DNA from: Rhodospirillales bacterium
Lineage (GTDB): Bacteria > Pseudomonadota > Alphaproteobacteria > BOG-932 > Roseiterribacteraceae
Direction: 5' to 3'
DNA length: 48,638 nucleotides
Assembly: GCA_028291365.1 (NCBI GenBank)
Contig: JAQGIE010000085.1
Location: 1 to 48,638 of the forward strand
The translations under genes and the position numbers were made by a program. Every line of letters starts with the position of its first letter. Within the stretch, counting starts at the first letter, position 1. This document shows, piece after piece, positions 25,361 through 47,765 of the stretch. A model generated the notes under the pieces. The model made no database searches. It was not told where the DNA came from and saw only the letters and a program-made list of their open reading frames with translations.

Positions 25361-26476
25361 TCAGGAAGATCGCACCACGACCAGCGGCCGGTCGGTTCGT
25401 GTCCGCGCTACCAGGTCCGGGCCGTGCACGGCGCGGCCGCGGGTGCCGTGATCGGCAGCGATGCCGGCGTAGAGTTGAAGATAATCCTCGGCCATGCGCG
25501 CGGCGGTGAAACGGGTCATGAAATCGGCCCGCACCGCGACCCGATCGAGCAGCTTCAACCTCGCCACCGCTGCGACCGCGCCGACTTCGTCCTCGACCAC
25601 GAAGCCAGATACGCCGTCCTGCACGACTTCGGGAACCGAGCCGCGATTGAACGCGATGACGGGGCAGCCGCAGGCCATCGCTTCGATCATCACCAGGCCG
25701 AATGGCTCGGGCCAGCAAATTGGGAACAGAAGCGCGGCCGCATTGCCGAGGAACGCGGCCTTCTCGTGCTCGGCGATTTCACCGATCCATTCGACATGCG
25801 GCTCGGCCAGCATCGGCTCGACCACGTCTTCAAACCAGGGACGGTCGGTGCGATCGACCTTGGCCGCGATCTTCAACGTCATACCCGCATCGCGCGCGAT
25901 GCGGATGGCGGCGTCCGGCCCTTTCTCGGGGCTGATGCGGCCGAGAAAAGCGAGATAGTCGAGCGACGGCGCGGGCGGCGGCACCAGCAGGTCGACCGGC
26001 AGGCCGTGCTGCACCGTGCCGATCCAGCCCGCTTGCGGCAGCGCCCTGCGCTGCGCATCCGAGATCGAGATCACCGGCACGTCGGCGAACTCGTCGAACA
26101 CGGGCTTCAACTCCTCGGTATCGAGACGGCCATGCAAGGTGGTGACGAACGGCAGGCCGAGCCTGCGATAGAGCGAGAATGGATAATAGTCCAGATGGCA
26201 ATGCACGACGTCGAACCGATGTGCCTGCTGCGCTACGCGTTCGAGCATCAGCAATTGCGGCGCGATCGGATCGCGCACGCCCTTGTCGAGCCGCAGCGCG
26301 CGCGGCGACATCGGGACGAGTTCGGCCGAGGTCACGCTGTCAGCCGACGCGAACAGTGTCACCTCGTGACCGTGCGCCACCAGTTCTTCGGTGAGATACG
26401 AAACAATTCGTTCGGTTCCGCCATAGAGTTTGGGTGGCACCGCCTCCACCAGCGGTGCAATCTGGGCGATGCGCAT
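25361..26476 (-). CDS. GT4-family glycosyltransferase (copy 1)
   Basis: A 371-residue GT-B fold transferase. The N-terminal Rossmann domain starts MRIAQIAPLVEAVPPKLYGG with TERIVSYL. The C-terminal donor domain carries LGRISPEKGPDAAIRIAR and the nucleotide-sugar signature WPEPFGLVMIEAMACGCPVI, with the family E-x7-E pair. It has no membrane helix. The start at 26476 matches the family N-terminus and has GAGGGA upstream. It is the first gene of a pair with the debranching enzyme. A clear paralogue lies at 40682-41758. Donor and acceptor sugars cannot be read from the sequence; a link to alpha-glucan or trehalose-type metabolism is inferred from the neighbour. Confidence 0.9.
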   Translation of the reverse strand: MRIAQIAPLVEAVPPKLYGGTERIVSYLTEELVAHGHEVTLFASADSVTSAELVPMSPRALRLDKGVRDPIAPQLLMLERVAQQAHRFDVVHCHLDYYPFSLYRRLGLPFVTTLHGRLDTEELKPVFDEFADVPVISISDAQRRALPQAGWIGTVQHGLPVDLLVPPPAPSLDYLAFLGRISPEKGPDAAIRIARDAGMTLKIAAKVDRTDRPWFEDVVEPMLAEPHVEWIGEIAEHEKAAFLGNAAALLFPICWPEPFGLVMIEAMACGCPVIAFNRGSVPEVVQDGVSGFVVEDEVGAVAAVARLKLLDRVAVRADFMTRFTAARMAEDYLQLYAGIAADHGTRGRAVHGPDLVARTRTDRPLVVVRSS

Positions 26477-27295: not shown

Positions 27296-27613
27296 TCAGG
27301 CAACCACGCGAATCCGGCCCGTCATGTGCGGATGCAGCGAGCAATAATATTCAACCGTGCCGGCTTCGGTGAAGACGCGCCGCCACGTCTCGCCGGTATC
27401 GAGGATGGGCGAGCGAAACGCCTTTGTGTTCTCGGTGACGTTGTGTTCGTCGCTGTCGCGATTGATCCATTCGATTTCCGTGCCGACTTTGACTTCGAGT
27501 TCGGCCGGCATGAACGTGGCCCGGTCGATCGTGACGACCGGCTTGTTTTCATCCGCCAAGGCGGCGCCCGCGAACAGCGCGGCGCCGCCCAGCAACAAAA
27601 TCCGTCGCTTCAC
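27296..27613 (-). CDS. Cupredoxin (plastocyanin/pseudoazurin-like blue copper protein)
   Basis: A 105-residue periplasmic electron carrier with a signal peptide (VKRRILLLGGAALFAGAALA, residues 1-20). The copper ligands are visible as His57 in DSDEHNVT and Cys91, His94 and Met97 in YYCSLHPHM, the type-1 arrangement with a short ligand loop. The GTG start overlaps the stop of the metallophosphoesterase gene as GTGA, so the two are coupled. Both lie in a unit led by an ECF-type promoter at 28612-28638, divergent from the sigma and anti-sigma genes. Its redox partner is unknown; a role under oxidative or metal stress is inferred from the sigma factor. Confidence 0.9.
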   Translation of the reverse strand: MKRRILLLGGAALFAGAALADENKPVVTIDRATFMPAELEVKVGTEIEWINRDSDEHNVTENTKAFRSPILDTGETWRRVFTEAGTVEYYCSLHPHMTGRIRVVA

Positions 27614-28572
27614 GTCGACGAGGCCAGCGGATGATCGACGATGGCGAGCGGGCCCTTGTTGGGCACGAAGTTCACTTGCGTGACTCCGAGCACCTGTTTC
27701 AGCCGGTCGGCCGGCACCACCATTGGACCGGGCGCCGGCGCGCTGCCCGGCGCGGGCTGCGGAAATGCGGTCGAAGCCGCGGTGTGGAAGGCGACGTTGC
27801 CTTCGATCTTCTGCAGCGTCTGATGAATGTGCCCGTTGAGCACGGTGACCGACCCGAACCGCTTGAGCAGCGTCATGGCGCGTTCGGAATCGCCGGTGGC
27901 CCAACCCCATTCGGGATAGACCGACCATAGCGGGACGTGCGCGAACACGACGATCGGCGTGCTGGCACTGAGTCCGGCGAGGTCTTTCTCCAACCATTCC
28001 AGCTGTTCGCCGCCCAGCGCACCGAGCTTGCCGCTTCGTTCGCTGACATTGTTGAGCCCGACGAAATGCACGCCGGCCTGGTCGAAACTGACCCAGCCTT
28101 TCGCCCCAGTCTGCCGTCCCCACAGATCCTTCCAGCGCGCATAGCCGTCATTGGCGAGATCATGCTCGCCCGGCACCGCAAGCAGCCGATCGGTCTTGAG
28201 CGTGCCCAGCACGTCGGCCGCGATCTCGTGCGAGCCCGGTTGCGACAGGTGCGTGACGTCGCCCGTATGCAATACGAAAGCGGGACGCTCCTTGAGCGCG
28301 TTCACCTTGGCGATCGCTTCGCGCAGCGTGCCGGTGACGTCGGGATTGGCCTCCTTGTTGAAACCGACATGCGAGTCGCTCATCTGCACGAAGCTGAACC
28401 CGGCTCCGGTCGCCTGAATGGGCGCCGCCCGCGCTTCGCCGACCCCGAGCAGGCGCGAGCTCGGAATGCCGCCCGTCACGGTCCAGACGAGGCCGCCTGC
28501 CGCCCAGGCCATGCATTCCAGCGCGCCGCGCCGGCCGACTTGGCCGGTTCCTTTGTCGTCGTCCTTCGACAT
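27610..28572 (-). CDS. Exported calcineurin-like metallophosphoesterase
   Basis: A 320-residue two-metal phosphoesterase. The N-terminus has a twin-arginine-like stretch (GRRGALECMAWAAGGLVW), suggesting export, probably by Tat. The metal motifs run in order: DSH in QMSDSHVG, GD in LHTGDVTH, GEHD in VPGEHDLA (the family usually has GNHD), AH in VFAHVPLW and GHIH in LNGHIHQ. GGGAG precedes the ATG at 28572; a longer frame upstream was rejected because it runs through the promoter palindrome. The natural substrate is unknown. The gene is the first of a two-gene unit with the cupredoxin and is predicted to be transcribed by the neighbouring ECF sigma factor. Confidence 0.88.
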   Translation of the reverse strand: MSKDDDKGTGQVGRRGALECMAWAAGGLVWTVTGGIPSSRLLGVGEARAAPIQATGAGFSFVQMSDSHVGFNKEANPDVTGTLREAIAKVNALKERPAFVLHTGDVTHLSQPGSHEIAADVLGTLKTDRLLAVPGEHDLANDGYARWKDLWGRQTGAKGWVSFDQAGVHFVGLNNVSERSGKLGALGGEQLEWLEKDLAGLSASTPIVVFAHVPLWSVYPEWGWATGDSERAMTLLKRFGSVTVLNGHIHQTLQKIEGNVAFHTAASTAFPQPAPGSAPAPGPMVVPADRLKQVLGVTQVNFVPNKGPLAIVDHPLASST

Positions 28573-28611
28573 CGCACACTCTCCCGCTACGGTTGGTTGG
28601 TCTGCTCCAGG

Positions 28612-28638
28612 GACCGGCGGGCCTTCGGCTTTATTCCC
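28612..28638 (-). promoter_or_regulatory. Predicted ECF-sigma promoter for metallophosphoesterase-cupredoxin
   Basis: On the minus strand, GGGAATAAA (28638-28630) is the left arm of the shared perfect palindrome. After exactly 15 bases comes GTC (28614-28612). The spacing and elements are identical to those of the opposite promoter. Transcription would begin about 30 bases before the ATG at 28572. The assignment to the adjacent sigma factor is inferred. Confidence 0.65.
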
Positions 28639-28665
28639 GGGAATAAAACCCGGCGTGGCCCGGTC
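28639..28665 (+). promoter_or_regulatory. Predicted autoregulated ECF-sigma promoter
   Basis: GGGAATAAA (28639-28647) is the right arm of the 18-bp palindrome at 28630-28647. GTC follows at 28663-28665 after exactly 15 bases. A start a few bases on leaves a short leader containing the GGAGG ribosome-binding site (28675-28679) of the sigma gene. ECF sigma factors usually drive their own genes. Confidence 0.65.
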
Positions 28666-28686
28666 GGGCAGAATGGAGGTTCCCGC

Positions 28687-29208
28687 GTGCGCGATTTCGA
28701 CCGTTCCCGGCGATTCGATGCGGCCGTGCTGCCGCATCTCGAACGCGGCTACGCGCTGGCGCGCTGGCTCGTGCGCGACGCGTCCGAGGCGGAAGACGTC
28801 GTGCAGGACGCGTGCATTCGCGCCTTGCGCTACATCGAAGGCTGGACCGGTGACGGCAATCGCGCCTGGTTTCTCGCGATCGTGCGCAACGCCGCCTACG
28901 ACAGGATGGCCAAGCGCGGGGCGCGGGCCGAAATGCCGCTCGACGATTCCGATCTCGGCGTCGTCGATGCAACGCCCGAGACGGCTTTGCTCGCGGCTGC
29001 CGACCGCACGCTGCTCAACCGGCTGGTCGAAGAATTACCGCCGCTATTCCGGGAGGTGATCGTGCTGCGCGAAGTTGAAGAACTGGCCTATCGCGACATC
29101 GCCACCGTCACCGGCGTGCCGGTCGGCACGGTGATGTCGCGCCTCGCGCGCGCTCGCGGCCGGCTGCTGGTGGCGTGGCGCGCCGCAACGATGTCGGAGC
29201 GTGCGTGA
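28687..29208 (+). CDS. ECF-type RNA polymerase sigma factor
   Basis: A 173-residue two-domain sigma factor. Region 2 is at about 10-75 (RGYALARWLVRDASEAEDVV with QDACIRALRYIEGW) and region 4 at about 115-165 (LPPLFREVIVLREVEELAYR with DIATVTGVPVGTVMSRLARAR). The GTG start at 28687 has GGAGG seven bases upstream. The stop overlaps the anti-sigma ATG as TGATG, so the pair is coupled. The promoter in front matches, at the same spacing, the promoter of the divergent metallophosphoesterase gene, which makes that operon its probable target. The inducing signal is unknown; the zinc-type anti-sigma partner suggests a redox or metal cue. Confidence 0.93.
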   Translation: MRDFDRSRRFDAAVLPHLERGYALARWLVRDASEAEDVVQDACIRALRYIEGWTGDGNRAWFLAIVRNAAYDRMAKRGARAEMPLDDSDLGVVDATPETALLAAADRTLLNRLVEELPPLFREVIVLREVEELAYRDIATVTGVPVGTVMSRLARARGRLLVAWRAATMSERA

Positions 29209-29945
29209 TGCGCTGTGAAGATGCCCACGTCCAGCTTTCGGCCGCCGCCGACGGCGAACTCGACCCCGCGCGTGCGGTCATGGTGCACGACCATCTCGAG
29301 ACCTGCCCCGCCTGCCGCGCCTATGACGAGCAGCAGCGCGTGCTGTCGCGCGCGCTGCGCGGTTCGCTGACCAGCCCCGAGATGCCGCCAGGCTTCGCCG
29401 CGCGCATGCGGGCCGGCGCGCTGGCCACGCCGGTGCCTGTGCGGCGATGGATGCCGCGTGCGGCGAAGTTCACCGCGCTCGCGGCAAGCTGGGTGGTGGC
29501 GGCGTGGTTGGGCATGTGGATGGCGCAGCCGCACGAAGGAATCGACCAACAGATCGTCGCCGCGCATGTGCGCTCGCTGCAGCTCGACCATCTGGTCGAC
29601 GTGCCGTCCTCCGATCGCCACACGGTAAAGCCGTGGTTCGCCGGCAAGCTCAGCATCACGCCGCCGGTGATTGAGGTCGACGGCTACGAGCTGCTCGGCG
29701 GACGGCTGGACTGGATCGCCGGCAAACCGGCGGCGTCGATCGTCTATCGCCGCCGCGCCCACACGATCAACCTGTTCGCGTCTGCCTCGGTGCCGGGCGA
29801 CGACACGGTGCACGTGTCGCACACGGGCGGCTGGACGCTGGTGCGCTGGCGCGCCGACGGCGTCGGGCTGACGCTGGTGTCGGACCTCAATGCCAACGAG
29901 CTGGTCGATTTCGCGCACGCGCTCGGGGCGCACGAAAGATCATAA
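29208..29945 (+). CDS. Zinc-binding transmembrane anti-sigma factor
   Basis: A 245-residue protein. The cytoplasmic N-terminal 45 residues form a zf-HC2 anti-sigma domain with HLETCPAC (H-x3-C-x2-C), and an upstream Cys (RCED) near the start. One membrane helix spans about 89-107 (FTALAASWVVAAWLGMWMA). The periplasmic part of about 135 residues (VKPWFAGKLSITPPVIEVDG, then LGGRLDWIAGKPAASIVYRR) follows the pattern of membrane anti-sigma factors with a conserved C-terminal sensor domain. ATG at 29208 overlaps the sigma stop. It should hold the sigma factor inactive until the periplasmic domain or zinc site senses stress. Confidence 0.9.
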   Translation: MRCEDAHVQLSAAADGELDPARAVMVHDHLETCPACRAYDEQQRVLSRALRGSLTSPEMPPGFAARMRAGALATPVPVRRWMPRAAKFTALAASWVVAAWLGMWMAQPHEGIDQQIVAAHVRSLQLDHLVDVPSSDRHTVKPWFAGKLSITPPVIEVDGYELLGGRLDWIAGKPAASIVYRRRAHTINLFASASVPGDDTVHVSHTGGWTLVRWRADGVGLTLVSDLNANELVDFAHALGAHERS

Positions 29946-31793: not shown

Positions 31794-33770
31794 ATGGCAC
31801 TCATGAACTGGCTTGTCGCGCGCTTCGCCGTCGGATTCGGCCTCGTGGCGATTGCGTTGGCCGTCGCGCCCGCGCCTGCCGCCGCGCAAGCGGGATGCGG
31901 ACCGGTGCCGGGCGCGCTCGAAAACCCACCCGAAGTGGCACGGGTTGCGGGCGGGATTCAGTCGCTTGATCTCGAAGTCCGCCAGGATGGAAACCGGCTC
32001 TGCTTCGTCGATCGCAACAGCAAGGACCGGCCCGGCATCGCGCCGACGATCCGGGTTCGTCCCGGCGAAACGCTGCGCGTGCGCCTGTTCAATCGCATCC
32101 ACGATGTCGCTCCGCTGCGCGCCCTGAGCACGCCCGGCCACCCGACCGACATCGGCGGGATTCCCGATACGCAAGGCGATTTCGAAGTCCGCCCCGGCGC
32201 CTATCATCCGCCGACCGGAAACACGAACCTGCATTTCCACGGGCTGGAAGTGAGGCCAGTGCCGTGCGGTCCCGGCACGTCGCCGGGCGACGACGTCGTT
32301 CGCACCTATTTCGCGCCCGAGGGCACCAAACCGGTGCCGCCGGATGCATGTCAGAGCGCCTACGAGATCCAGATCCCGAAAACGCAGCCAGCGGGACTCT
32401 ATTGGTACCACACGCATCTGCACGGCGAGAGCGAGGCCCAGACATTGCTTGGATTGTCCGGCGCGCTCGTGGTCGAGAACGAGGTCGACGATTCCCGGCG
32501 CCAGCAAGGAATCCCCGACCGACTCCTGATCGTGCGCGACCAGCCGATTCCGGAACCGCCCGAGGCGGCGGCACCGGCGCCGAACGCTTCGGCAGCGGCA
32601 CCTGCAAACACCATGGTTGCAAAGGCTGCGCCGGCCGCGAAGCAAGCGGGCGGAACCGCATCGGCGCTGCCGCAATGCGCGTTCGGCAAATGCATCAACA
32701 CGGCGGCGCAAACCCAATGCTCCGCACCCGATGAGCGCGAGCAGGAAACCATCCTGAGCGTCAACGGGATCTCGATCCGCGATACGCACAACCCGACGGG
32801 AACCGTGCCGGAGATTACGGTTCGCACCGGCAAAGAAGAGCACTGGCGTCTCGTCAATGCCGCGGCGAGTACCTATGTACGCGTGCACCTGGTCGACATC
32901 GACGAGTCCGGCAAGGTTCGGAACGTCCCGTTCGACGTCGCGGCGCTCGACGGTGTTCCGCTCACCGATGCAACCGGCCGGCCGCAGGCGGAGACGCATG
33001 CCGAGCCGATCATGGTGCCCACCGGCGCACGGCTCGAATTCAAGGTCAAACTCGATGCGCCCGCCGCGCAGCATCGCATTGTCCTGCGCACCGAAGCGGT
33101 GGACACGGGTTGCGGCGGCGACCTGATGCCCGCCCGGGATCTGGTTTCGATTCGAACCGAACCCGGGGCGGCCGATGGTTCACCTGCAGCTGCAAGCGCG
33201 CGAGCTCCGGGTCCGGCTGGAGCGGTACAGCGCAGCGACGACGCGCCGTCCGACGGCAAGCCCGTGCGCCAGCGCATTTTCGCCTTCACCGAGTATCCGC
33301 GGCCGAACAGCAGCAAGACGGATTTCACCATCACGGAAGTGTCGCGGCCGGACGCGGTCATCGAACCCTATCCGATGGACCGCATGCCGTCCTCGGTCGT
33401 CGAGGTTCAGCCGGACAGCGTCGAGGACTGGACCATCCTCAACTTCACGCACGAGGTCCACGACTTCCATATCCACCAGCTCCACTTCCGTGTGCTGGAG
33501 AGCCCGGACAAGTTCCTCGAGGGACGCGTCCTGGACACGATCAACCTGCCTGCGGCCTCGCCCGATGCAAACTGGTCAGCAGGCGACGCGGTGACACCCA
33601 GCGTGGCGCGGCTGCGCATGCGCTTCCACCGCAACATCTCGGGCACCTTCGTCTTTCACTGCCATCTTCTCGGGCACGAGGACAAAGGGATGATGGGGCT
33701 CATTCGTGTCGCCGAGCCGGGCGTCGCCCGCCCGTCGATGTCGGACCAAATCCCACCGCATCATCACTGA
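31794..33770 (+). CDS. Multicopper oxidase with a Cys-containing insert
   Basis: A 658-residue exported copper oxidase. A signal peptide occupies about 1-32 (LAVAPAPAAAQA). All four copper motifs are present: NLHFHG, YWYHTHLHGES, HDFHIHQLHF and FHCHLLGHEDKGM. So type 1 and the type 2/3 centre are complete, and the axial ligand is Met. Between the first and second cupredoxin domains (about residues 257-320) lies an Ala/Pro-rich stretch followed by CAFGKCINTAAQTQC, which ordinary oxidases of this group lack. Another Ala/Pro-rich linker is near 465-485. The end is His-rich (PPHHH). Substrate may be a phenol, a metal ion or bilirubin-like. The start may be nine bases later (Met4); no ribosome-binding site is clear. 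Confidence 0.9.
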   Translation: MALMNWLVARFAVGFGLVAIALAVAPAPAAAQAGCGPVPGALENPPEVARVAGGIQSLDLEVRQDGNRLCFVDRNSKDRPGIAPTIRVRPGETLRVRLFNRIHDVAPLRALSTPGHPTDIGGIPDTQGDFEVRPGAYHPPTGNTNLHFHGLEVRPVPCGPGTSPGDDVVRTYFAPEGTKPVPPDACQSAYEIQIPKTQPAGLYWYHTHLHGESEAQTLLGLSGALVVENEVDDSRRQQGIPDRLLIVRDQPIPEPPEAAAPAPNASAAAPANTMVAKAAPAAKQAGGTASALPQCAFGKCINTAAQTQCSAPDEREQETILSVNGISIRDTHNPTGTVPEITVRTGKEEHWRLVNAAASTYVRVHLVDIDESGKVRNVPFDVAALDGVPLTDATGRPQAETHAEPIMVPTGARLEFKVKLDAPAAQHRIVLRTEAVDTGCGGDLMPARDLVSIRTEPGAADGSPAAASARAPGPAGAVQRSDDAPSDGKPVRQRIFAFTEYPRPNSSKTDFTITEVSRPDAVIEPYPMDRMPSSVVEVQPDSVEDWTILNFTHEVHDFHIHQLHFRVLESPDKFLEGRVLDTINLPAASPDANWSAGDAVTPSVARLRMRFHRNISGTFVFHCHLLGHEDKGMMGLIRVAEPGVARPSMSDQIPPHHH

Positions 33771-41810: not shown

Positions 41811-43637
41811 TTACGAACGGCGACTAAACGCCATCGGCGGCAGCGCGGCAGCGCCACCCCAGTTCGGCCGCGGCGACCGCTGCGCCGCGGGCTCGGCGCC
41901 CGCCTGCAACTGCCAGAGACGCGCGAAAGCGCCCTCTCCCTTCAGCAGCGCCTGCGGTGAGCCGTCTTCGACGATGTGCCCCTGATCCAGCACGAGGATG
42001 CGGTCGAAATCGATCAGCATCGACAGCCGGTGCGCGATGGCGAGCACCGTTCGTCCCTGCATCAGGGCCGCCAGTGCGTGCTGGATTGCACGCTCGGATT
42101 CGGAATCGAGCGCCGATGTTGCTTCATCGAGCAGCACGATCGGCGCATCCGCGAGAATCGCGCGCGCGATTCCGATCCGCTGGCGCTGGCCACCGGACAG
42201 GCGAATGCCGCGTTCGCCGACCGGCGTGGCATAGGCGTTCGGCATGCGCTGCACGAATTCATCGCAGCGGGCGGCGCGCGCCGCTGCGAGCACCTCCGCC
42301 TCGTCCGCCGTCGGCCGCGCATAGCGGATGTTCTCGAGGATCGAGCGATGGAACAGCCATGTTTCCTGCGGCACGATCGCGATGGCGCGGCGCAGGCTGT
42401 CCTGCGTGCAGGCAGCAATGTCCATGCCGTCGATTTCGATGCGTCCTGTATCCGGCACATAGAATCGCTGCAGCAGGGCGAGCAGGGTGCTCTTGCCGGC
42501 GCCCGACGGACCGACGATGCCGACCTTCTGGCCGGCTGGAATCGTCAGATCCAATTTGTGCAGGATCGGCTGCTCGCCCGCGTAGCCGAACGCGACTTCG
42601 CGGAAACCGAGCTCGCCGCGCGCGACGACAATCGGAGCGGCGCCGGGCCGATCGGGCAGATCGTGCGGCACCGTCACCTCGCGCAACGCGTCCGCGAGCC
42701 GTCCCCATTGATGGCCGGTCTCGACCAGCGCCACGGCCAGATCGCGTGACGCGCTCAGCATGCCGAGGCTCAAGCTTCCCACCACTACGACCTGTCCGGG
42801 CGTGATCACGCCATGCTGCCACAACAGGACGGCCCAGCCGAGCATGAGGCTCGACAGCACCCAGACGCCGACCGCATGGACCGCGCGCAGCGCTTCCATG
42901 TGGAACAGCGCGCGGCGATGCGCGTGCGCTTCGGCGTGCAGCCCGGCATTCAGGGCCGCATATTCGCGGTCCTCGGCCGCAAAGGCACGGACCGCACCAT
43001 GGTTCGAGACGACATCGACGATCGCGCCGCCGACATCAGCGGCGCGCCCGGCATAGATATGGTGCAACGGCCGTCCGCGCTGCGCCGCGACCGAGAGACC
43101 GCTGGCCAGCACCAGCACGACCGCGCTCAAGGCGGCGGCGAGCTGCCAATGCACCGCGGTCAGGGCGACCAGCGCGCCGATGATTGCGACCGTCGGCGGA
43201 ATGATGTTGAAGGCGAGCGTGTTCTCGACCGTGAACATCGCTTGCGCAGCGGTGGTGACGCGGTTGGCAAGCCCGCCGGCCAGCCGCTGGCCGAAATAGC
43301 CGGCCGAATGGCGCAGCAAGTGCCCGAACAGCTCGAGGCGCAGATCGACACCGACATTCGGGAAGGTGCGCGCTGCGCACCAACCGACCACGCGCCATAG
43401 AAGATTGTCGCCGCCGACCAGGAACGTGAAGATCGCGACCGCATACCAGATGCGGTTGCCGCCGTCGGGACCAGCCGCCACGGCATCGACGACATTGCCG
43501 ATCGATACTTGCGAACCGAGCGAGCAGGCGACGGCGCCGAAGACGGCGACCAGCAACAAAGCGTGGCGCCACCGATAGCGCCACGCGTAGCGCGCGAGGA
43601 TTCGAAGCGGCGTCAGCGACGCTTTCGATTCGATCAT
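41811..43637 (-). CDS. ABC exporter, fused membrane and ATPase domains (type IV half-transporter)
   Basis: A 608-residue exporter. About 320 residues of membrane domain with six helices (HALLLVAVFGAVACSLG, then IIPPTVAIIGALVALTAV) precede the ATPase. The ATPase has Walker A GPSGAGKST, the Q loop IVPQETWLFHRSILENIRYA, the signature LSGGQRQR, Walker B IVLLDEATSALD and the switch His in AIAHRLS. It should work as a homodimer. The frame extends far upstream but the family N-terminus and a GGGAG site point to the ATG at 43637. Substrate could be a lipid, drug or polysaccharide precursor; the following glycosyltransferase gene hints at a glycan, as inference. The upstream region is rich in inverted repeats. 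Confidence 0.92.
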   Translation of the reverse strand: MIESKASLTPLRILARYAWRYRWRHALLLVAVFGAVACSLGSQVSIGNVVDAVAAGPDGGNRIWYAVAIFTFLVGGDNLLWRVVGWCAARTFPNVGVDLRLELFGHLLRHSAGYFGQRLAGGLANRVTTAAQAMFTVENTLAFNIIPPTVAIIGALVALTAVHWQLAAALSAVVLVLASGLSVAAQRGRPLHHIYAGRAADVGGAIVDVVSNHGAVRAFAAEDREYAALNAGLHAEAHAHRRALFHMEALRAVHAVGVWVLSSLMLGWAVLLWQHGVITPGQVVVVGSLSLGMLSASRDLAVALVETGHQWGRLADALREVTVPHDLPDRPGAAPIVVARGELGFREVAFGYAGEQPILHKLDLTIPAGQKVGIVGPSGAGKSTLLALLQRFYVPDTGRIEIDGMDIAACTQDSLRRAIAIVPQETWLFHRSILENIRYARPTADEAEVLAAARAARCDEFVQRMPNAYATPVGERGIRLSGGQRQRIGIARAILADAPIVLLDEATSALDSESERAIQHALAALMQGRTVLAIAHRLSMLIDFDRILVLDQGHIVEDGSPQALLKGEGAFARLWQLQAGAEPAAQRSPRPNWGGAAALPPMAFSRRS

Positions 43638-47226: not shown

Positions 47227-47765
47227 CGCGCCGTCCTCTCGTCCGGACGAGAGGCGCCTCTGGCGCCGCCCTTCGCCTGTTCGCCCATCACCTGTTCGAT
47301 CGCGTCGATGATGTTGGCGTAGGCGCCGCAGCGGCAGAGATTGCCGCTCATCATCTCGCGGATCTCTTCACGGGTGCCGGCGTGACCCTCGGCGATCAGC
47401 GCGACGGCGGAACAGATCTGGCCCGGCGTGCAGTACCCGCACTGGAAGGCGTCGTGGGTAATGAAGGCGCGCTGGATCGGGTGCAGCTCGCCGTCCTTGG
47501 CGAGGCCTTCGACCGTGGTGACTTCGGCGCCGTCTTTCATCACCGCCAGGGCGAGGCAGGAATTGATCCGGGCTCCGTCGACCAGGACGGTGCAGGCGCC
47601 GCACTGGCCCTGGTCGCAGCCTTTCTTGGTGCCGGTGAGGTCGAGCGTGTCGCGCAGCACGTCGAGCAGCGTGTCCCACGGCCTCACCGAAAGACGGTGC
47701 CGCCTTCCGTTGACGGAGAGGCTGATCTCGATCGTCGCCGGCAGGTCTGTCGAACTGGCGCGCAC
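47223..47765 (-). CDS. 2Fe-2S subunit, PaoA-like, without export leader
   Basis: A 180-residue ferredoxin-type subunit with two 2Fe-2S clusters: Cys50, 55, 58 and 70 in the plant-type N-terminal domain, and Cys109, 112, 144 and 146 in the helical domain (FQCGYCTPGQ, NLCRCGAY). E. coli PaoA starts with a long twin-arginine leader; here the GTG start (GAGGGAG six bases upstream) leads straight into the ferredoxin domain, and the frame upstream has no start and no twin Arg leader. The complex is therefore predicted to be cytoplasmic. It heads the three-gene unit. A maturation chaperone (PaoD) gene is not seen here. Confidence 0.92.
   Translation of the reverse strand: MRASSTDLPATIEISLSVNGRRHRLSVRPWDTLLDVLRDTLDLTGTKKGCDQGQCGACTVLVDGARINSCLALAVMKDGAEVTTVEGLAKDGELHPIQRAFITHDAFQCGYCTPGQICSAVALIAEGHAGTREEIREMMSGNLCRCGAYANIIDAIEQVMGEQAKGGARGASRPDERTAR

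Follow-up and report, generated by a model that had tools for sequence, protein, structure and literature searches.

The described systems that most resemble the locus reported here are those of the ECF26 sigma factors, namely RpoE1, RpoE4 and RpoE6 of S. meliloti and SigE of Starkeya, whose promoter consensus, supported by start-site mapping and reporter assays, is a -35 GGAATA with a -10 GT, or GGAAT/CGTC (PMC6180224, PMC6527743, PMC3511301). In these systems the sigma gene is followed by the gene of an anti-sigma factor with one membrane segment, the operon is autoregulated and the regulons are mostly small; RpoE1 and RpoE4, both with small regulons, respond to sulfite-generating compounds, divergently transcribed targets occur (rpoE6/SMa0142), and an azurin-type gene is found among the targets of RpoE4 (sorT-sorU-azu2) (PMC6180224, PMC6527743, PMC3511301).

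The locus analysed in this work lies in a window of 48,638 nucleotides from a Rhodospirillales bacterium. It is similar in its promoter type, in the order of its sigma and anti-sigma genes and in having a divergent target, and probably in its autoregulation. The motif GGGAATAAA-N15-GTC, which stands in front of two divergent operons at 28612-28665, fits the ECF26 promoter (-35 GGAATA, -10 GT(C)), and the sigma factor is a candidate member of this group. The locus differs, however, in that the targets are a metallophosphoesterase and a cupredoxin and that the two promoters abut. RpoE6, the single ECF26 reference that we placed, falls outside this sigma family in a quick tree, where it lies on a long branch together with other ECF paralogues. 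That the present system responds to sulfite or to a redox signal is only a lead. Two candidate parallels were rejected: in the vicinity of S. meliloti rpoE6 the divergent-side motif alone was found, hence this is not a second back-to-back case, and Bradyrhizobium EcfQ and EcfF, considered as the closest studied case, belong to ECF33 and ECF16 and have different promoters.

Ordinary divergent autoregulated ECF operons, such as RpoE7 with SMb20527-20530 (PMC6180224), likewise have one sigma factor that controls both the operon encoding it and a divergent one, as we propose for the present locus; the zero spacing between the -35 elements and the likely preference of the family for whole helical turns set the present case apart. 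Warman, Grainger et al. (PMC12825309) described bidirectional promoters in E. coli that consist, like the present locus, of pseudo-symmetric DNA on which polymerase can face either way but not both ways at once, a behaviour that we predict here too; competition and effects on noise are expected when such promoters are strongly active. The E. coli promoters have overlapping -10 elements, starts about 10-23 bp apart and sigma-70 as their factor, whereas in the window the -35 elements abut, the predicted starts are separated by about 65-71 bp and the factor would be an ECF sigma. With its symmetry point between the -35 elements and its GTC elements 48 bp apart, the locus does not belong to the E. 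coli type. Neither GGGAATAAA nor the gene pair in combination with ECF gave a relevant hit in text searches of the literature.

Results

The features of the locus are collected in Table 1. The sigma factor consists of sigma regions 2 and 4 only, it is short and its gene adjoins that of a zf-HC2 anti-sigma factor, which places it among the ECF (group 4) factors. A GGAGG at 28675-28679 precedes its GTG start, its stop codon overlaps the start of the anti-sigma gene, and a transcript starting 5-10 bases past the GTC would have a short leader. Hydropathy along the anti-sigma factor peaks at 1.52, slightly below the usual 1.6 threshold, and the C-terminal domain is presumed to be periplasmic. The metallophosphoesterase is probably exported.

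Table 1. Features of the divergent locus (positions of the window)
Feature	Positions	Strand	Description
Small cupredoxin (Copper-bind/amicyanin-like)	27296-27613	-	N-terminal signal-like segment
Calcineurin-like metallophosphoesterase	27610-28572	-	Twin-arginine-like N-terminus (GRRGALECMA)
Inferred start site, metallophosphoesterase/cupredoxin operon	about 28603-28606	-	
Predicted ECF promoter, metallophosphoesterase/cupredoxin operon	28612-28638	-	-35 28630-28638, N15, -10 GTC 28612-28614
Perfect 18-bp palindrome TTTATTCCCGGGAATAAA	28630-28647		Head-to-head pair of GGGAATAAA -35 elements with a gap of 0 bp
Predicted ECF promoter, sigma/anti-sigma operon	28639-28665	+	-35 GGGAATAAA 28639-28647, N15, -10 GTC 28663-28665
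Inferred start site, sigma/anti-sigma operon	about 28671-28674	+	
ECF sigma factor	28687-29208	+	Sigma70_r2 (PF04542) and Sigma70_r4_2 (PF08281), 173 residues, GTG start
Anti-sigma factor	29208-29945	+	zf-HC2 at residues 3-37; candidate membrane segment near residue 88

A preliminary description of this DNA had reported the palindrome and, outward of each of its arms, 15 bases followed by GTC on both strands; both were recovered exactly, in sequence and in position. It had also described the two -35 elements as back to back and sharing one sequence. They are indeed back to back, but they abut and have no base in common. The genome scan that it had proposed was carried out as a pattern search of the whole 4.37-Mb genome, in which GGGAATAAA-N15-GTC has two exact matches, those of the present pair; dinucleotide shuffles of the window did not contain the pattern.

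The idea that the palindrome is remarkable per se was rejected, as the window has four perfect palindromes of at least 18 bp against 0.9 expected from a first-order Markov model; the other three (18-20 bp) are located at 25885-25904, 42155-42172 and 47235-47254. The feature that exceeds chance is the promoter pair, not the palindrome alone. The palindrome is there because two identical -35 elements abut with nothing between them, and we regard it as a probable by-product without a separate function, the zero gap being the tightest packing that leaves both 9-bp -35 elements intact. The promoter motif pair is real and appears to be functional.

For comparison we used a relative of the same genus (G001; the genome of the window is G000) and distant relatives in the Alphaproteobacteria, Betaproteobacteria, Gammaproteobacteria, Gemmatimonadota and Acidobacteriota, and scored the motif as a -35 GGGAATAAA, a spacer of 14-16 and a -10 GTC or GTA. 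A motif pair on both strands was found upstream of the orthologous sigma gene at 76 of 151 loci, compared to 0.03% of shuffled upstream regions; the loci without such a pair, about half of the total, are mainly those with collinear operons. The metallophosphoesterase homologues adjoin the sigma gene in most loci, and the cassette occurs in three layouts: divergent, sigma/anti-sigma followed by metallophosphoesterase/cupredoxin, and the reverse order. In the last of these, seen in Alphaproteobacteria, the motif precedes the metallophosphoesterase gene and is absent before the sigma gene, while in the collinear layout that begins with sigma it precedes both sigma and metallophosphoesterase. Since the motif tracks these two genes through the rearrangements, it would mark the operon starts of the regulon of this sigma factor. 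The same motif before the sigma operon and before a divergent target, kept in relatives, is consistent with a divergent autoregulated ECF pair.

The sigma factor of G001 is 86% identical to that of the window over its full length. G001 lacks one base at the very centre of the palindrome (TTATT-CCGGGAATAAA), with the result that the -35 elements overlap by one base (spacing -1) and that the divergent -35 begins with C, its promoter being CGGAATAAT-N15-GTC. Both -35 and both GTC elements are kept and the spacers have diverged. Both promoters are retained, and it is not the palindrome that is conserved. Zero spacing is also found in Gemmatimonadota (L041/L043 and L192), where a large set of loci has 2 bp, so tight packing recurs in the genus of the window and in this phylum. 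Across the family the gap from one -35 element to the other (d, in bases) ranges from -1 to >200 bp and clusters at -1 to 3, 10-14, 18-26 and 29-35; most relatives have 10-35 bp or more.

These results bear differently on the two halves of the claim, made in the preliminary description, that the palindrome hard-wires joint or mutually exclusive expression of the sigma/anti-sigma and metallophosphoesterase/cupredoxin operons. Joint control is supported by a motif that follows both operons across phyla, rearranged loci included. Mutual exclusion as a general principle has to be given up in view of the lost symmetry in G001 and the wider gaps of most relatives. That description had itself named loss of the symmetry with regulation retained as the outcome that would speak against it, and as far as sequence can tell this is the state of G001, whose promoters are kept. 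Mutual exclusion is possible at the window locus, but it is not a property of the family.

The clustering of d was analysed for phasing modulo 10.5 bp, after collapsing the observations by sigma protein identity (at 60% in the discovery set). The discovery set gave R=0.42 at 10.5 bp (n=14, p=0.08), and a second set of later loci, which counts for less having already been seen when the phasing hypothesis was written down, gave R=0.41 (n=27, p=0.009). In a fresh set, fetched after the hypothesis had been recorded, V was 0.49 (n=13, p=0.0054) and the phase 1.08 bp, compared to 1.0 bp predicted; the helix face to which such a phase corresponds depends on the reference point chosen within the -35 element. 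All collapsed data together (n=55) yielded R=0.39 at 10.5 bp with a p of about 0.0002. The p-values of the separate tests are moderate, and the spacing classes are clustered on the sigma protein tree. Phasing is confined to short distances: R=0.56 (p=0.0035) for d<=16, and R=0.08, that is no phasing, for d>=28. The signal rests in part on one strong mode at 20-24 bp, yet it persisted when the 17-27 mode was removed (p=0.0045 for V, 0.03 for R). The promoter-to-gene distance, used as a control, showed no phasing (R=0.11, p=0.51). There are 16 sister pairs with non-overlapping tree paths and a spacing change of at least 3, and in 11 of them the change amounts to 8-13 bp; p is 0.006 by jitter and 0.03 when pairs drawn at random from this pool serve as the null. 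On the harshest collapse of the loci, to 7 points, the phasing signal vanished. Below about 27 bp the gap thus likely prefers whole helical turns (about 1, 11.5 and 22 bp), which is not an established rule, and the palindrome of the window would be the zero-turn member of this spacing series. Our literature search found no report of helical phasing among divergent ECF promoters.

Discussion

We propose with considerable confidence that 28612-28665 holds two divergent promoters recognised by a single autoregulated ECF sigma factor, the product of the gene at 28687-29208, and that the palindrome is a by-product of packing; short gaps likely prefer whole turns. The motif pair, its conservation, its tracking of the operons and the spacing statistics are observations on the sequences; the identity of the sigma factor at the promoters we infer. 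As known ECF biology would suggest, the zf-HC2 anti-sigma factor would release the sigma factor, whose complex with RNA polymerase would read GGGAATAAA-N15-GTC rightward to give more sigma and anti-sigma (autoactivation), and leftward to give the exported metallophosphoesterase and the cupredoxin (joint induction). Judging from the size of the polymerase, two of them could probably not occupy both sites at zero gap, and the two operons, sharing one activator, would then initiate one at a time. Given the usual geometry of RNA polymerase, such steric exclusion at a gap of 0 bp is plausible.

What the spacing does in the family is less certain. We tentatively consider that it may be under selection for helical phase, with bound polymerases, or their alpha C-terminal domains, meeting on the intervening DNA; the abutting form of the window would be the limiting case, a two-way promoter that admits a single sigma-RNA polymerase at any moment, for one operon or the other. 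The best surviving alternative, doubtful in our judgement but a serious one, is that the promoters are independent, that their close packing merely follows from the shortness of the intergenic region, and that the spacing is without function, the phasing being an effect of chance or of the tree. The wide variation of the spacing in the family, the moderate p-values, the sister-pair result of p=0.03 against one of the nulls and the disappearance of the signal on the harshest clustering are all in keeping with it. It is at odds with the fresh set, which gave p=0.0054 at the phase predicted beforehand, with the flat control distance, and with the restriction of the phasing to short range, which is the behaviour expected of a physical effect.

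It is customary to treat ECF promoters as parts that work in one direction and independently of each other. What is new here is that divergent ECF promoters prefer to be spaced by whole helical turns, which is likely though not established. If spacing does evolve by whole turns, adjacent promoters that share a sigma factor communicate by way of the intervening DNA, and phasing would matter both for the interpretation of ECF regulons and for the design of ECF switches.

A strong form of the exclusion proposed in the preliminary description is that zero spacing was selected as a mutual-exclusion switch, polymerase competition setting the ratio of sigma/anti-sigma to phosphoesterase/cupredoxin. 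From the general footprint of polymerase, two of them would not fit on -35 elements that abut, a d of -1 to 3 is found repeatedly, in the genus of the window and in Gemmatimonadota, and competition has been documented at highly active bidirectional promoters of E. coli (PMC12825309). We nevertheless consider such a switch unlikely, because the same gene pair has 10-35 bp or more between the elements in most relatives and because the E. coli promoters do not compete at basal activity (PMC12825309). As competition matters there solely under strong transcription and is negligible at the basal level, any effect at the window locus is expected under full induction only.

In addition to the cassette, the regulon may extend to further genes within the genus. 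A one-mismatch promoter, CGGAATAAACC...TGTC, precedes the gene of a secreted tetratricopeptide protein both in the genome of the window (G000 C89:3334-3360, L128) and in its relative (G001 C1:1802268-1802294, L132), and this protein is a probable further member, as far as its promoter indicates. A second conserved site, GGGAATAGA-N15-GTC, lies before an ECF sigma paralogue (G000 C27:33468-33494, L123; G001 C1:2339713-2339739), which is PhyR_sigma2-like and groups with S. meliloti RpoE6; it suggests cross-talk or a sister autoregulated system. Since these one-mismatch sites are conserved between the two genomes, two more genes may belong to the regulon, or a cross-talking sigma factor may be involved. 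It is very improbable, however, that the motif at 28612-28665 is used by a second ECF sigma factor of the genome instead of the one encoded beside it. The genome does have other ECF genes, the promoter of the C27 paralogue is near-identical and conserved in G001, and ECF26 factors of S. meliloti cross-activate, but across phyla the motif accompanies this particular sigma/anti-sigma pair and moves with its operons.

That the palindrome is instead the operator of a dimeric transcription factor repressing or activating the divergent operons, with promoters elsewhere, is scarcely credible: a perfect palindrome of 18 bp between divergent genes does look like a typical operator, but in relatives its half-sites, far from keeping a fixed spacing, drift apart from -1 to >40 bp, each retaining its own N15-GTC partner, while collinear operons are preceded by a single half-site with GTC, and half-site plus GTC fits the published ECF consensus.

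With the locus read as a divergent ECF promoter pair, the comparison yields a clear regulon prediction for a widespread and little-studied sigma/anti-sigma/metallophosphoesterase/cupredoxin cassette. The divergent gene is a different one in some lineages and encodes another exported protein, namely a cupredoxin-domain protein (Gemmatimonadota), a YncE-type propeller, a DsrE protein or a metallo-beta-lactamase-fold protein. In the Gemmatimonadota loci with 0-2 bp spacing (L003, L041, L044 and L192) it codes not for a metallophosphoesterase but for a long, exported protein whose N-terminal part is a cupredoxin domain and whose C-terminal domain is unassigned. In the order around Caballeronia (L217, L219 and L224) sigma factors of this type have as their divergent targets exported proteins that are DsrE-like or 5'-nucleotidase/SoxB-like, possibly a hint of a signal related to sulfur.

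Two minor observations concern the vicinity of the cassette and its promoter. Beyond the anti-sigma gene, some 1.8 kb downstream, 31794-33770 of the window encodes a large protein whose translation has multicopper-oxidase-like HxH motifs, and its surroundings are possibly a copper/redox neighbourhood. Upstream of the metallophosphoesterase gene in Bradyrhizobium and relatives (L061-L081) the -35 is kept and the -10 is GATC or GCTC in place of GGTC/GTC, a change that may correspond to a shift in the specificity of sigma region 2 in this clade.
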